Made by a program: the position numbers and the translations under genes. From Pseudomonas extremaustralis (lineage in GTDB: Bacteria > Pseudomonadota > Gammaproteobacteria > Pseudomonadales > Pseudomonadaceae): a stretch of 64,000 nt of DNA. The stretch lies in assembly GCF_900102035.1 (NCBI RefSeq), contig NZ_LT629689.1:5145001-5209000 (forward strand). The letters run 5' to 3'. The notes under the pieces are model-generated. The model was not told the origin of the DNA and ran no database searches. It was given only the letters and a program-made list of their open reading frames with translations. This document shows positions 55,984 through 62,097 of the stretch, piece after piece. Numbering within the stretch: position 1 is the first letter of the stretch; every line of letters begins with the position of its first letter.

Positions 55984-57351
55984 TTACAGGCGCAACAGGG
56001 TCTTCCAGGCGCGGTTCTGATACACCGCAATCGCTTGATGCATACGTGCATCCAACGATTCGTCGGTGATCGGCTGGTTGGCCAGCAGCGCCAGCTTGTT
56101 CAGCTCGCCATACAGACGGTCCAGTTCTGGAATGTCCACCACCTGACGCGCATGGTGCAGCCACGCCTGGATGCGTTCGATACGCGGCAGTTGCTCGGCC
56201 AAGTCTTCCGGTTGCTGCTGGTAACGCTGCAGCTGCAGGGCGACGGCATCGTCGGCCAACAGGCGTGGCAGCCAGTTGGTGATTTGCGCAGCACCCTGGC
56301 GGTTGCCACGCACATTGCGGTCGGCGGTCCAAGTGCGGTTCAGCAACCAGCGGGAGGTGTTCAGTGAGAACAGGCCCCAGCGCACGTCGGCCAATTCGTC
56401 GGCGAATTGCTCCGGCGCGGCTTTGCGGATGTCTTCATCGTCGTCACCGGCCTGGACCAGCGGGCGCCAGTCTTCCAGCAGGGCATCGAGTGCGCTGCGC
56501 AGTTCGCTGGTGGATTGACGCGGTGCGGCCTGGCCGAGGCTGCCGAGCAGGGCGCGCAATTCGCCGAGGTTTTCGACCCAGTCCTGCAACAGGCGCCAGT
56601 GGCCATTGAAACGGTATTGCTCGGCCAGGCGCTGGCTGCTGCCCAGCAGGTGCCACATGATCGCGGCGAAGGCGTCGTCCAGCGGCATTTCGGCGTGCAG
56701 CTGCGGTGCCGGCAGGCTCAGGGAGTAGCTGCTGGCGTCATACAGGCGGTAGCCGCGCTCAGCCTTGCTGATGTCACAGGGCATCAGTGCCAAGGTCGCC
56801 GCCAGCTCGGCGGCCAGCTCCAGCAGGGCAGCGGGTTCGCCTTCGCGCAGTTCCAGTTCCAGCTCGCAGATTTCTTCTTTCTGCTTGCCGGCGACCACAT
56901 GGCCCAGGTCCAGGGCGGCTTCGATCACCACCTTGGCCTTGCCGCGGCCCCAGGCGATTTCGGCGCGTTCGCGCACGAAGTCGGTGGTGAAGATCGGCTT
57001 GAGGGTCTTTTTGTCCAGCTCGGCGAGTTCCTCGGGCCAGCACTCGCCGTCGAGTTTCTTCACGTCGAGCTTGGCTTTGGGCAATTCCCAGTTGTATTCG
57101 TTACGTTCCGACAAGCCGGCGACGCTTTGGCCGCGGGTCTTGAGGGTCTGGATAATGTCGTCACCGTCCTTGCGCAAGCGCAGGGCGACTTTGGCGCGGG
57201 CCAGGTCGCGTTCAGGGGTGTCGAAGTACTGGTTCATCAACTCACGGCGTTCCCAGCCACTTTTGTTGCGTTTTTTCAGTAGCGGGTGCTCACGCAGCGC
57301 GGCGAGCGTTTCGCGGCTGACACGGAGCTTGATTTCGGTTTCTTTCTGCAT
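55984..57351 (-). CDS. CYTH-CHAD domain protein (YgiF-like triphosphatase)
   Basis: A 455-residue protein. The N-terminal CYTH domain (about 1-200) begins MQKETEIKLRVSRETLAAL with the ExExK metal/phosphate motif and has DDIIQTLKTRGQSVAGLSERNEYNWEL. The C-terminal CHAD domain (about 220-450) has helices with conserved basic residues (VRWGLFSLNTSRWLLNR, IQAWLHHARQVVD). E. coli YgiF has the same architecture and hydrolyses inorganic triphosphate; CHAD domains bind polyphosphate. It is divergent from argE. Confidence 0.92.
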   Translation of the reverse strand: MQKETEIKLRVSRETLAALREHPLLKKRNKSGWERRELMNQYFDTPERDLARAKVALRLRKDGDDIIQTLKTRGQSVAGLSERNEYNWELPKAKLDVKKLDGECWPEELAELDKKTLKPIFTTDFVRERAEIAWGRGKAKVVIEAALDLGHVVAGKQKEEICELELELREGEPAALLELAAELAATLALMPCDISKAERGYRLYDASSYSLSLPAPQLHAEMPLDDAFAAIMWHLLGSSQRLAEQYRFNGHWRLLQDWVENLGELRALLGSLGQAAPRQSTSELRSALDALLEDWRPLVQAGDDDEDIRKAAPEQFADELADVRWGLFSLNTSRWLLNRTWTADRNVRGNRQGAAQITNWLPRLLADDAVALQLQRYQQQPEDLAEQLPRIERIQAWLHHARQVVDIPELDRLYGELNKLALLANQPITDESLDARMHQAIAVYQNRAWKTLLRL

Positions 57352-57449
57352 GGCCGGAAAATCCAGGATCGGGAGCGCAGCCGGGGAAAAGAGAGGCTGC
57401 CAAGGTCGTGCAGTGTACAGGACTGCGCCCGGCAACGCGCCGCAACGGT

Positions 57450-57478
57450 TTATTGTGTCGCACCGATGCCTTTATAGT
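57450..57478 (+). promoter_or_regulatory. Likely argE promoter
   Basis: -10 TATAGT (57473-57478) with -35-like TTATTG (57450-57455) and 17-bp spacing, about 30 bp upstream of the argE start. The -35 is poor; no ArgR box was resolved. Confidence 0.5.
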
Positions 57479-57509
57479 GAGGTTCATCCGGGAAGTAGGG
57501 AGACCGCGC

Positions 57510-58658
57510 ATGCCGTTACCGTCCATGAAAGAGCAATTCGCCGCCTTGATTGCCACGCCGTCGGTCAGTTGCACCCAAGCGTCTCTCGACCAGAGCAACC
57601 GTCCGGTGATCGACCTGCTCGCCAGTTGGCTGGGCGATCTGGGCTTCGCCATCGACATCCAGCCCGTCAGCCCCGGCAAGTTCAATCTGCTTGCCAGCTT
57701 CGGCACAGGCCCTGGTGGCCTGGTGCTGGCCGGTCATAGCGATACCGTCCCGTATGACGCCGCATTGTGGAAGACCGATCCGCTCAAGCTGACGGAAGTC
57801 GACGGCCGCTGGGTAGGACTGGGCAGCTGCGATATGAAGGGCTTTTTCGCACTGGCCATCGAAGCGGTGTTGCCGCTGCTGGATCAACCGTTCAAGCAGC
57901 CGTTGCTGATCCTCGCCACTTGCGATGAAGAAAGCTCGATGTCCGGGGCCCGTGCGCTGGCCGCCGCCGGCCGTCCGTTGGGCCGCGCGGCGGTGATTGG
58001 TGAGCCGACCGGCCTCAAGCCGATCCGCTTGCACAAAGGCGTGATGATGGAACGCATCGACATCCTCGGTCGCAGCGGCCATTCGTCGGACCCGAGCCTG
58101 GGCCACAGCGCCCTGGAAGCCATGCACGACGCCATCGGCGAACTGCGTGGCCTGCGTCTGGCCTGGCAGCGCGAGTACCGCAACCCACAGTTCAGCGTGC
58201 CGCAACCGACCCTGAATTTCGGCTGCATCCATGGTGGCGATAACCCCAACCGCATCTGTGGCCAGTGTTCCCTGGAGTTCGACCTGCGGCCCTTGCCTGG
58301 CATGGACCCGCAGGTGCTGCGCGCGGCGATCCGGCAGAAGCTCGAACCCGTGGCCGAGCGCCATAAGGTGAAGATCGACTATGCGCCGCTGTTCGCCGAA
58401 GTGCCGCCGTTCGAGCAGGCCGAAGACGCAGAGCTGGTACGGGTCGCTGAGCGATTGACCGGTCATCGTGCCGAAGCAGTAGCGTTTGGCACCGAAGCGC
58501 CTTATCTTCAGCGCCTTGGTTGTGAAACCCTGGTGCTTGGCCCCGGCGATATCGCCTGCGCCCACCAGCCGGGCGAGTACCTCGAAATGTCACGCTTGAC
58601 GCCTACAGTGCGTCTATTGCGGGAACTGATCGAGCATTACTGCCTGACACCTGCCTAA
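57510..58658 (+). CDS. argE: Acetylornithine deacetylase
   Basis: A 382-residue M20-family zinc enzyme that frees ornithine from N-acetylornithine. Start MPLPSMKEQFAALIATPSVSCTQ with GTAGGGAGA upstream. The metal site is visible as LVLAGHSDTVPYD (His, Asp), GLGSCDMKGFFAL, ILATCDEESSMSGARAL (Glu-Glu) and VIGEPTGLKPI, with ARMK-type LHKGVMMERIDILGRSGHSS. argA follows in the same direction after 133 bp. Pseudomonas mostly recycles the acetyl group by ArgJ, so argE may serve another flux. Confidence 0.93.
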   Translation: MPLPSMKEQFAALIATPSVSCTQASLDQSNRPVIDLLASWLGDLGFAIDIQPVSPGKFNLLASFGTGPGGLVLAGHSDTVPYDAALWKTDPLKLTEVDGRWVGLGSCDMKGFFALAIEAVLPLLDQPFKQPLLILATCDEESSMSGARALAAAGRPLGRAAVIGEPTGLKPIRLHKGVMMERIDILGRSGHSSDPSLGHSALEAMHDAIGELRGLRLAWQREYRNPQFSVPQPTLNFGCIHGGDNPNRICGQCSLEFDLRPLPGMDPQVLRAAIRQKLEPVAERHKVKIDYAPLFAEVPPFEQAEDAELVRVAERLTGHRAEAVAFGTEAPYLQRLGCETLVLGPGDIACAHQPGEYLEMSRLTPTVRLLRELIEHYCLTPA

Positions 58659-58695
58659 TTTGATCCCCACCCATTCGTACATAAGGAGAGCGAGC

Positions 58696-58722
58696 GTGTC
58701 GCCAAGCCTGTTCCGACGATAA
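58696..58722 (+). CDS. Candidate 8-codon arginine leader peptide upstream of argA
   Basis: A GTG start with AAGGAGAG (58683-58690) 5 nt upstream, the strongest ribosome binding site in this region, opens a frame GTG TCG CCA AGC CTG TTC CGA CGA TAA. It encodes MSPSLFRR and ends with two CGA arginine codons directly before the stop. The argA start, 69 bp later, has only a weak site (CAGG). CAGGC at 58778-58782, which overlaps that weak site, can pair with GCCTG inside the leader (58706-58710) or just after it (58729-58733). Arginine-dependent translation control of argA is inferred. Confidence 0.5.
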   Translation: MSPSLFRR

Positions 58723-58791
58723 CCATCAGCCTGCTGTGCGTTTTCACGACTCATCCTTTTTCGGCTGCTTTTTATTACAGGCCCAGGTTCC

Positions 58792-60090
58792 ATGCCCGAT
58801 TACGTCAATTGGCTTCGTCACGCTTCGCCCTACATCAACGCTCACCGGGACTGCACCTTTGTGGTCATGCTGCCCGGCGATGGTGTGGATCATCCGAACT
58901 TCGGCAATATCGTCCACGACCTGGTGCTGCTCCACAGCCTGGGCGTGCGGCTGGTGCTGGTCCACGGTTCGCGCCCACAGATCGAAGCGCGCCTTGACGC
59001 GCGCGGCCTCACCCCGGTTTACCACAAGGGCCTGCGCATCACCGATGCCGCAACCCTGGAGTGCGTGATCGACGCGGTCGGCCAACTGCGTATTGCCATT
59101 GAAGCGCGCCTGTCGATGGACATGGCGTCGTCGCCGATGCAGGGCTCGCGCCTGCGCGTGGCCAGCGGCAATCTGGTGACGGCCCGCCCGATCGGTGTGC
59201 TGGAAGGCGTGGATTACCACCACACCGGCGAAGTGCGCCGCGTCGACCGCAAGGGTATCAATCGCCTGCTGGACGAGCGCTCCATCGTGCTGCTGTCGCC
59301 CCTGGGTTATTCGCCCACTGGCGAGATTTTCAACCTGGCCTGCGAAGACGTCGCCACCCGCGCCGCCATCGATCTGGCGGCCGACAAGCTCCTGCTGTTC
59401 GGCGCCGATCCCGGTCTGATCGACGAAAATGGCCGTCTGGTGCGCGAGTTGCGTCCGCAGCAAGTGCCAGCGCATTTGCTGCGCCTGGGCAGCAACTACC
59501 AGGCTGAATTGCTCGATGCGGCCGCCGAAGCTTGCCGTGGCGGGGTAGGGCGCAGCCATATCGTCAGTTATGTCGAAGACGGTGCCTTGCTCACCGAACT
59601 GTTCACCCGGGACGGCGGCGGTACGCTGGTGGCCCAGGAGCAATTCGAGCTGGTGCGCGAGGCGGCGATCGAAGACGTCGGCGGCTTGCTCGACCTTATC
59701 AGTCCGCTGGAAGAACAGGGCATCCTGGTACGCCGTTCGCGGGAAGTGCTGGAGCGCGAGATCGAGCAGTTCAGCGTCGTCGAACGCGAAGGCATGATCA
59801 TCGCCTGCGCGGCGCTGTATCAAATTGCCGATTCGGATGCGGGGGAGCTGGCGTGCCTGGCGGTCAACCCGGAGTACCGCCACGGCAGGCGCGGCGATGA
59901 GCTGCTGGAGCGCATCGAGGCCCGTGCGCGGGCACAGGGTTTGAAGACGCTGTTCGTACTCACCACACGCACAGCGCACTGGTTCCGCGAGCGCGGCTTT
60001 GTGCCTAGCAGCGTGGAGCGCCTGCCTTCGGCGCGGGCATCGCTGTACAACTATCAGCGTAACTCGAAGATTTTCGAGAAAGCCCTGTAA
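58792..60090 (+). CDS. argA: N-acetylglutamate synthase
   Basis: A 432-residue enzyme, first step of arginine synthesis. The amino-acid kinase-like domain (about 1-290) has NIVHDLVLLHSLGVRLVLVHGSRPQIEARL and ADKLLLFGADPGLIDENGRLVREL and normally binds arginine as feedback inhibitor. The GNAT acetyltransferase domain (about 295-432) has LACLAVNPEYRHGRRGDELLERIEARARAQG for acetyl-CoA and ends FRERGFVPSSVERLPSARASLYNYQRNSK. Start MPDYVNWLRHASPYINAHRDCTF. A possible leader peptide lies upstream; a hairpin follows the stop. Confidence 0.95.
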   Translation: MPDYVNWLRHASPYINAHRDCTFVVMLPGDGVDHPNFGNIVHDLVLLHSLGVRLVLVHGSRPQIEARLDARGLTPVYHKGLRITDAATLECVIDAVGQLRIAIEARLSMDMASSPMQGSRLRVASGNLVTARPIGVLEGVDYHHTGEVRRVDRKGINRLLDERSIVLLSPLGYSPTGEIFNLACEDVATRAAIDLAADKLLLFGADPGLIDENGRLVRELRPQQVPAHLLRLGSNYQAELLDAAAEACRGGVGRSHIVSYVEDGALLTELFTRDGGGTLVAQEQFELVREAAIEDVGGLLDLISPLEEQGILVRRSREVLEREIEQFSVVEREGMIIACAALYQIADSDAGELACLAVNPEYRHGRRGDELLERIEARARAQGLKTLFVLTTRTAHWFRERGFVPSSVERLPSARASLYNYQRNSKIFEKAL

Positions 60091-60135: not shown

Positions 60136-60738
60136 TGTCTGTCGATGACTTGGTCGCTCAAGCTTTTGGGGCGCGTCTGTGTGTTTCCCCATTCACTGCT
60201 ACAGTTTCAGAATTCTTGACTTTGAGCCGGATCGATCAGGGCCCAGAGGGGTAAATTGCGCGAAGTTTTCGTGGGCAGACGGTTGCACCGGCGGCGTCGA
60301 TACCACCTTGAAATATTAGTGATACAAAAACTGTAACAAATTGACTGGAAAATCGGCGTTTGGCCATGATGGCCTCGTTTTTTCTGATCCTGGTTGACGT
60401 ATGTAATGCCGCGTTCAAGCCTAAAAGATCTAAAAGGCTCATAAAAAATACCCTTTAGGAATTAGCTTATGCGACGACTCGTCTACTCTGACGTGCCCGA
60501 CTCATGCCAAGGCTTATTCCGAAATTGTATGAAAAAGGATGAAATAATTCTTTTTGGGTGTATGAAAAACTCATTACCCTGCAAGGACCAAATCAACTGC
60601 GATTAGACGAAGGTAGTAGACACATAAGGTTACGATTGACTTGTTGGTCACTATGCGGTGCTAATCGCGCATCTGTGGATCGCGGGCGTCAGACCCGGGA
60701 CCAAAGAAATACAAAAATTAGAAAAAGAGGAGCGGTAC
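60136..60738 (+). promoter_or_regulatory. Long AT-rich leader/control region of porin gene
   Basis: About 600 bp without a confident gene; AT-rich from about 60310. The best ORF is a 45-codon plus-strand frame at 60469-60606 (ATG with AGGA 8 nt upstream), whose product starts MRRLVYSDVPDSCQGLFRNC and holds five cysteines. It is unsupported otherwise. Just before the porin start the RNA is purine-rich with A-R-N triplets (ACAAAAATTAGAAAAAGAGG, 60711-60730), the type of sequence bound by Hfq/Crc in pseudomonads. Confidence 0.45.
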
Positions 60739-62097
60739 ATGAAGAAGTCCAATTTGGCACTGGCTGTAGCTTTGGGCGCAATCGCCCAGCATGCAGGCGC
60801 TGCTGGTTTCATCGAAGACAGCCACGCCACACTGAGTGCGCGTAACTTTTACATCAACACCGATAACCGTGATGGTGCTCCAACGGCGAGCAGTCGTAGT
60901 AAAAACGCCGAGTGGGGCCAAGGCTTCGATCTGCGTTTCATCTCGGGTTACACCCAAGGTACCGTTCAGTTCGGCGTTGATGCGATCGGCCTGTATGGCG
61001 TGCGTCTGGACTCCAGCCGCGAAAACCACGGTAACTACAGTGGCACTGCTTCCGGCGGTACCATCTTCCCAAGCGATGGCAACAAGGCCGTCAACGATTT
61101 CGCCAGCCTGGGCGTGACCGGCAAGGTCAAGATCTCCCAAACCGAATTGAAACTGGGCACCCTGCAGCCTAAGTTGCCCGTTATCGTGACCAACGATGGT
61201 CGTATGCTGCCGCAAACGTTCCAAGGTGGTCAGATCACCTCTAACGAGATCAAGGATTTGACTCTGGTTGGTGGTCAGATTGAAAAGGCTAAGGGGCGTA
61301 ACTCCAGCAATAACGAAAACCTGTCGATTGCCGGTGCCAACGCTAGTTCTAACTACAACACCGGCAAATTTAGCAATAAGTTCTACTACGCTGGTGGTGA
61401 CTACAAGCTCACCAAAGATCTGACTGCCCAGTACTACTACGGCAACCTGGAAGACTTCTACAAGCAGCACTTCCTGGGGCTGACTCACAACTGGGCCATC
61501 GGTCCGGGCGTGTTGAAGTCTGACCTGCGTTATTTCAACAGCTCTGACGATGGTAAGAACGGCAACACCGCCGCTTACTACACCAGCGGTAACTACAATG
61601 GTTTCGCCAGCGGTAAGGGCAAGGTCGACAACAACCTGTACAGCGGCCTGTTCCTGTACACCGTTGCCGGTCACACCTTCGGTGGTGGTTATCAGGTCAG
61701 CAACGGCAGCAGCGACTTCCCTTGGTTGAACCAGGGCGACGGTTCGTCGGCTTACCTGACAACTGACATGCAGATCCAGAAGTTCGCCCGTGCCGGCGAG
61801 CGTACCTGGCAAGCTCGCTACGCTTATGACTTCGCTACAGTCGGCGTACCTGGCCTGACTGCCGGTGTTATCTACCTCAAGGGTAGCGATATCGACACCG
61901 TTACTGCTTCGCGCACTGAAATTACCGGCCAATCCGAGTGGGAACGTGACATCACGCTCGCCTACGTAATTCCAGAAGGCCCGCTGAAAAACCTCGGCTT
62001 TGCCTGGAAAAACGCAATGTGGCGTACCGACCTGGCGAATACCCGTTCCCAGGACGAAAACCGTCTGATCGTCAGCTACACCCTGCCACTGTTCTAG
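60739..62097 (+). CDS. OprD-family outer-membrane porin (OprE/OprQ-like)
   Basis: A 452-residue porin, signal peptide MKKSNLALAVALGAIAQHAGA (cut before AGF). The mature start FIEDSHATLSARNFYINTDNRDG is the OprD-family pattern, closest in my memory to OprE/OprQ. It continues with WGQGFDLRFISGYTQGTVQFGVDAIGLYGVRLDS and ends with strand LIVSYTLPLF and terminal Phe. GAGGAG precedes the start. These porins pass small nutrients; the substrate is unknown. It sits between argA and the sulfonate genes without obvious functional link. Confidence 0.92.
   Translation: MKKSNLALAVALGAIAQHAGAAGFIEDSHATLSARNFYINTDNRDGAPTASSRSKNAEWGQGFDLRFISGYTQGTVQFGVDAIGLYGVRLDSSRENHGNYSGTASGGTIFPSDGNKAVNDFASLGVTGKVKISQTELKLGTLQPKLPVIVTNDGRMLPQTFQGGQITSNEIKDLTLVGGQIEKAKGRNSSNNENLSIAGANASSNYNTGKFSNKFYYAGGDYKLTKDLTAQYYYGNLEDFYKQHFLGLTHNWAIGPGVLKSDLRYFNSSDDGKNGNTAAYYTSGNYNGFASGKGKVDNNLYSGLFLYTVAGHTFGGGYQVSNGSSDFPWLNQGDGSSAYLTTDMQIQKFARAGERTWQARYAYDFATVGVPGLTAGVIYLKGSDIDTVTASRTEITGQSEWERDITLAYVIPEGPLKNLGFAWKNAMWRTDLANTRSQDENRLIVSYTLPLF

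Follow-up and report, generated by a model that had tools for sequence, protein, structure and literature searches.

The 133 nt that separate argE from argA in Pseudomonas extremaustralis hold an open reading frame of eight codons ending in two arginine codons, and the question raised by this locus is whether so small an ORF could report the supply of arginine to argA and, if so, which part of it does the reporting. Within the window, by which we mean the whole 64,000-nucleotide stretch of DNA analysed, both genes run in the same direction and the features concerned are as follows.

57510..58658, + strand: argE, acetylornithine deacetylase, the gene 5' of the leader (NF003474, 594 bits against a cut-off of 460)
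58683..58690, + strand: Shine-Dalgarno (SD) sequence of the leader, AAGGAGAG (read from the sequence)
58696..58722, + strand: leader ORF, GTG to TAA, MSPSLFRR-stop (sequence and comparative conservation)
58714..58719, + strand: tandem CGA CGA arginine codons abutting the leader stop, the presumed sensor (codon conservation)
58723..58776, + strand: pyrimidine-rich spacer from the leader stop to the argA start site, a candidate Rho-loading or standby stretch (base composition)
58777..58787, + strand: weak argA SD region, ACAGGCCCAGG (sequence; CAGG in 51 of 65 SD regions)
58792..60090, + strand: argA, N-acetylglutamate synthase, the presumed target (TIGR01890, 719 bits against a cut-off of 203)

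The preliminary description of this locus spoke of a strong SD, a 5-nt gap, an eight-codon GTG frame ending CGA CGA TAA and a distance of 69 nt to argA, with all of which the sequence agrees: the codons run GTG (58696) TCG CCA AGC CTG TTC CGA CGA TAA (58720-58722), 5 nt lie between AAGGAGAG and the GTG, and 69 nt between the leader stop and the argA ATG (58792). No sigma-70-like promoter was found in 58400-58900, which suggests that argE and argA are co-transcribed as a presumed operon; a terminator-like site was not found in the argE-argA spacer of the window either, and Rfam returned no family matching 58500-59000 up to E = 5, and none at the gathering score in four relatives. The neighbourhood also includes two ORFs without an NCBIfam match at 1e-20, one of 483 aa on the minus strand (55984-57435) that is presumably CYTH/CHAD-like by its look, and one of 479 aa on the plus strand (60658-62097) which by its look we take to be outer-membrane-porin-like.

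Within its own genome, and so far as the tests reach, the device belongs to argA alone. There are 21 matches to AGGA-N5-35-CGACGATRA in that genome, among which only the argA leader has an in-frame start at the usual SD distance, and no short ORF ending RR-stop was found there upstream of carA, of two ornithine-carbamoyltransferase-like genes, of argG or of argB, on which grounds a leader general to the arg regulon was rejected. An ArgR-controlled promoter was rejected as well: the ArgR consensus, given as TGTCGC-N8-AA (PMC4997734), occurs on neither strand in the 200 nt upstream of argA at any of the 234 loci described below, nor, with up to one mismatch allowed, at 57300-58800 of the window, and its absence from these upstream stretches leaves room for another arginine control.

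Distribution of the leader in the Pseudomonadaceae

The 234 argA loci compared comprise the window, the best 80 of 563 confirmed candidates (the nearest relatives, with 94-97% ArgA identity, by which the nearest of those with names are Pseudomonas species), 78 and a further 2 loci from 80 genomes picked out of 298 as divergent or for odd leaders, 63 of 103 matches from other genera, and a few picked from matches to the pattern PSLFRR-stop. A few genomes are counted twice (L126 and L279, for example) and the distinct leader regions number 197; six close loci (L150-L155) and L278, whose argA start falls outside its stretch, were excluded. L278 (G293:C210:1-500) holds the leader pattern of G293 a second time, letter for letter, close to the end of a contig, and is probably an assembly overlap.

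An SD-led ORF of 3-10 codons ending Arg-Arg-stop is present in the 200 nt upstream of argA at 205 of the 234 loci, and in 196 of these 205 the ending is exactly CGA CGA stop. Dinucleotide-shuffled controls gave an Arg-Arg-stop leader in 10/4680 cases and the exact CGA CGA stop in 1/4680, and the same test found no leader on the antisense strand (0/234) or in argA upstream regions of other families (0/40, drawn from 130 other-family matches, one of them short at 237 bases). Among loci from the genus of the window or from named Pseudomonas 169 of 170 have the leader, the sole exception being L221, and in other genera of the family it is found at 36 of 64 loci. By a hand tally it occurs in 10 of the 19 sampled genera (g1, g2, g4, g6, g8, g9, g12, g13, g14 and one of the two g16 genomes) and was not found in nine (g3, g5, g7, g10, g11, g15, g17, g18 and g19). 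These nine genera and the other g16 genome account for the 27 of 234 loci at which there is no such ORF, and the leader is therefore dispensable. At L221 (MLRRS-stop) and at L271 (g13, where the frame reads on past the pair) CGA CGA is kept with no stop directly after it.

The leader is real and under selection, family-wide yet not universal, and it is more widespread than the preliminary description had claimed. What is shared is a design rather than a fixed peptide, since PSLFRR-stop itself occurs in only 52 of 298 family genomes and 2 of 19 genera, and far relatives have leaders such as MTASLFRR, MLPSMFRR, MTPSLFRR, MKLPQLRR, MYMRRR, MLRRR, MLRR, MQRR and MKRR. In L169, L171, L175 and related loci inverted repeat-like insertions stretch the spacer between leader and argA to about 120-131 nt, with the leader kept.

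What selection keeps in the leader

In the 80 nearest loci (the best 80 of 563) hardly a letter changes between the SD and a point about 20 nt beyond the stop, and the sequence before the SD and just 5' of the argA start site drifts; such conservation taken alone could reflect a constraint on DNA or on RNA. It is in the wider set, 65 distinct leader DNAs encoding 50 distinct peptides, that the leaders come apart. Their lengths, by the start choice made, are 8 codons in 38, 6 in 11, 4 in 7, 7 in 7 and 5 in 2, the codon preceding the Arg pair takes 14 forms, one peptide position carries up to 13 different amino acids, and the stop is TAA in 47, TGA in 15 and TAG in 3 (one near relative, L063, has TAG in place of TAA). 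The penultimate codon is nevertheless CGA in all 65 leaders, with CGA (60), CGC (4) or AGA (1) as the last codon, Arg-Arg being retained in G273/L120 as CGA AGA. The search required Arg-Arg-stop, which makes the constancy of the amino acids partly one of construction; all six Arg codons were allowed in it, which leaves the choice of codon unbiased. In the argA genes of the 80 relatives CGA accounts for 1.7% of 3354 Arg codons, so that a requirement for arginine alone does not explain the CGA pair.

A FastTree tree of 135 argA sequences, all of 600 nt or more and all from loci with the leader, places the changes in the same way. The minimum numbers are 34 for the peptide body, 13 for the codon before the pair, 7 for the stop, 7 for length, 6 for the start, 2 for the last Arg codon (both still Arg) and 0 for the penultimate Arg codon, a pattern that reads as the signature of a codon-reading device rather than of a peptide. 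The preliminary description had proposed that a comparison of spacers would tell whether the Arg codons and stop drift freely, and had named LFRR-stop among the parts to be conserved; the body does vary and the CGA CGA pair does not, and whilst R-R-stop written as CGA CGA is kept, LFRR proved too specific. Its idea of a tiny tandem-Arg leader peptide tied to argA is, as far as comparison of sequences can tell, strongly supported.

In one group of loci the leader has become part of another gene. Among 203 distinct upstream regions with a readable argE end there are seven (L157, L159, L161, L202, L205, L206 and L208) in which the leader is in frame with argE, such that ArgE ends ...VQRR, encoded with the stop by CGA CGA TGA. 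Being the in-frame end of argE, this CGA CGA TGA is surely translated if argE is, and in these seven loci the sensor would be the last two codons of argE. GGAG and GTG remain just before the fused CGA CGA TGA in all seven.

As to why the codon should be CGA, the regions covering all 67 tRNA matches in the genome of the window contain tRNA-Arg genes with the anticodons ACG (2), CCG, CCT and TCT and none with TCG. CGA must hence be read by the ACG tRNA, a decoding that depends on inosine wobble. In a Salmonella his-leader assay CGA is reported as the poorly read, slow member of the CGU/CGC/CGA set and CGA-containing Arg-Arg pairs as de-attenuating most with any partner except AGG (PMC4046918), and in theory an attenuator must use particular ones of the synonymous codons in order to be sensitive (PMC1183508). 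Such systems do not all depend on rare codons, since in the Salmonella speF leader arginine control is reported to survive a swap of rare for frequent Arg codons, and to survive both CGACGA and CGCCGC in place of the native pair (PMC6386406).

How the leader might control argA

The reading that we prefer, to which we give a probability of roughly 0.7, is that the leader is a sensor of charged tRNA-Arg in which pausing at CGA-CGA-stop at low arginyl-tRNA switches argA on; that the ORF at 58696-58722 is translated, and that CGA-CGA-stop is its sole selected part, belong to this best explanation and are held at the same strength. When arginyl-tRNA is short a ribosome would pause on the two CGA codons and remain parked where the leader ends, with ample arginine it would complete the leader and depart, and the parked ribosome would allow expression of argA, the start of which lies 52-131 nt (median 68) beyond the leader stop. 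What the comparison shows is the ORF in front of argA, how widely it is conserved, and a selection that holds its CGA codons and leaves the other residues free; it is the pausing, the response to arginine and its sign (low arginine, argA on) that we infer here.

For the final step we favour a shielding of the RNA after the leader stop from Rho-dependent termination over an opening of the argA start, and the two can coexist. Whatever the length of the ORF, the Arg pair strictly occupies its very end, and this suggests a ribosome with two states, parked or gone, which would fit protection of the RNA immediately beyond, most simply against Rho. The part given to Rho is a guess, as the spacers are no richer in C than those of leaderless relatives. 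The spacers of 65 representatives are 36% C, 30% T, 22% G and 12% A (pyrimidine 66%), and C exceeds G in 63 of the 65; the 27 leaderless relatives match them (C 36-37%, G 22%), and C-richness was accordingly discarded as proof of Rho.

A further proposal, tentative and in our view slightly less probable than its opposite, is that this is the smallest amino-acid attenuator so far: M-x-R-R-stop, a sensor of four codons for which the one slow codon is CGA, read via wobble by tRNA-Arg(ACG), would work by the presence or absence of one parked ribosome instead of by a peptide or a terminator, all else drifting freely, and in one clade it would have become the final two codons of argE itself, where the end of a gene senses the product of its pathway.

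The stalled ribosome might instead act through a translational switch, freeing the argA start site (ACAGGC) from pairing with GCCTGT of the leader, which we consider doubtful. The preliminary description had pointed to such a GCCTG/CAGGC pairing, and in the window the six bases of GCCTGT (58707-58712) and ACAGGC (58777-58782) are indeed complementary and pair in a single-sequence fold; CCTG and CAGG occur together in 31 of 65 distinct leaders, L015 has a double change (AACCTGT with ACAGGT), and the complementarity of leader to argA SD is 12.6 against 11.4 (sd 0.3) for shuffled leaders. Leader and SD region do not co-vary, however, since 66 of 200 permutations of one against the other reach the real pairing value, and the pairing is lost in a sub-clade (e.g. 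L125, L141, L142 and L144) and in RRR-type genera, both of which retain RR-stop. In a fold model, opening the argA start costs on average 1.3 kcal/mol less with a ribosome parked on the leader, against 0.36 in shuffles, and 45 of 65 leaders gain more than the shuffle mean, but the gain in the window is only 0.3 kcal/mol and in several loci the cost is raised. The consensus fold is weak at -7.7 kcal/mol (RNAalifold, 82 distinct fluorescens-type sequences) and the single-sequence z-score of the whole spacer is 0.19, values that show no convincing switch and no uniform structure and led us to reject a conserved RNA fold. Pairing with the argA SD was itself rejected as the switch element for want of co-variation, and a role limited to some lineages is possible. 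Of the arginine switch first envisaged it is the conserved tandem-Arg leader tied to argA that stands and the pairing that goes unsupported. An intrinsic terminator was rejected too, terminator-like hairpins being found in just 11 of 197 distinct leader regions.

Ordinary coupling, in which the leader merely feeds ribosomes to argA by reinitiation and senses no arginine, seems improbable. A role for leader genes in raising the translation of what lies downstream has been proposed before, in a paper that names neither Pseudomonas nor argA nor arginine (PMC4833913). The leader SD is strong (AGGAG or AAGGAG in 47 of 65 distinct leaders) and that of argA, as the preliminary description had it, is weak (AGG in 44, AAGG in 8 and AGGT in 7 of the same 65), though weak argA SDs are found in leaderless members of the family as well. 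A gap of the length given above is far for reinitiation, and coupling of this kind would leave CGA CGA unexplained.

We give still less credence to arrest by the nascent peptide, whereby a short peptide with arginine or another ligand would stall the ribosome at the stop, as with TnaC, SpeFL and the fungal arginine attenuator peptide. The Arg pair does lie directly before the stop, a position where arrest peptides often act, but these peptides of 4-8 residues keep nothing except R-R, there being no conserved residues besides those of the last codons, and selection acts on CGA and not on arginine. That CGACGATAA is instead a protein-binding motif in DNA or RNA, with the ORF incidental, is very improbable: the spacer of the fluorescens group is conserved well beyond the Arg codons and GYTGTG follows within 40 nt of the stop in 117 of 162 distinct leader regions of the genus, but the motif comes with an SD and with an in-frame start whose distance varies, its stop exchanges among TAA, TGA and TAG, and the ArgR consensus is absent from the 234 stretches upstream of argA. 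In the same region (58723-58745 of the window, and its counterpart in relatives) CAGCCCGCTGTGCG is nearly invariant in the fluorescens group.

Known leaders and the meaning of the argA leader

The sensor of charged tRNA-Arg that we prefer has counterparts among known leaders. Salmonella speF orf34/SpeFL shares with the argA leader two consecutive Arg codons and a reading of arginine supply as pausing, and the two might also share a part for Rho and for RNA structure downstream; it differs in having 34 codons, a conserved core (DUF2618) and AGG CGG at positions 12-13, and in controlling ornithine decarboxylase (PMC6386406). The argA leader, in contrast, has 4-8 codons, no conserved peptide and a CGA CGA that abuts the stop, and it precedes an arginine-synthesis gene. 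Membership of the speF orf34/SpeFL family was rejected as there is no core of some 30 residues, RR alone is common to the peptides of 4-8 codons and the downstream gene is argA.

With the trp, his and leu attenuators (PMC1183508) the argA leader shares end-product codons in an ORF before a synthesis gene and a biased regulatory codon, having as it does a translated-looking leader ORF rich in such codons. Unlike them it sits between two genes instead of heading an operon, its minimal ORF has just two or three control codons, and an intrinsic terminator is absent from most spacers; an intrinsic terminator with a competing antiterminator was not found between leader and argA, given the few hairpins, their absence in the window and the want of a stable consensus fold. 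The likeness to tnaC of E. coli would be that a ribosome kept where the leader ends shields the adjoining RNA from Rho. TnaC depends on its own peptide and on free tryptophan, whereas the peptide of the argA leader is not conserved. The candidate cysS uORF uORFC-8-2 of the Rhodobacterales (PMC8632094) was likewise recognised by comparative genomics, as a short ORF with tandem codons for the amino acid that it senses, though its Cys codons occupy positions 14-15, with a terminator stem after them. A carA leader reported from Pseudomonas aeruginosa (PMC4997734) also places a leader peptide before a gene serving arginine synthesis; that one is tied to pyrimidine control, and carA in the genome of the window has no RR-stop ORF upstream of it.

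We found no report of an argA leader in Pseudomonas in the open PMC library (subscription journals and preprints lay outside the scope of the search), and its novelty is provisional. ArgA catalyses the first, committed step of arginine synthesis, and a leader sensor would supplement the known feedback control with one based on translation, in a large and much-used bacterial family, standing in a spacer where no ArgR site is seen. Since everything except CGA-CGA-stop drifts, the leader would be a clean natural case of a conserved sensor made of one codon pair rather than of a peptide or RNA fold, and the choice of codon is testable at argA by synonymous changes alone. More generally, ORFs of 4-8 codons, which lie below the cut-offs of gene finders, can be strongly selected.
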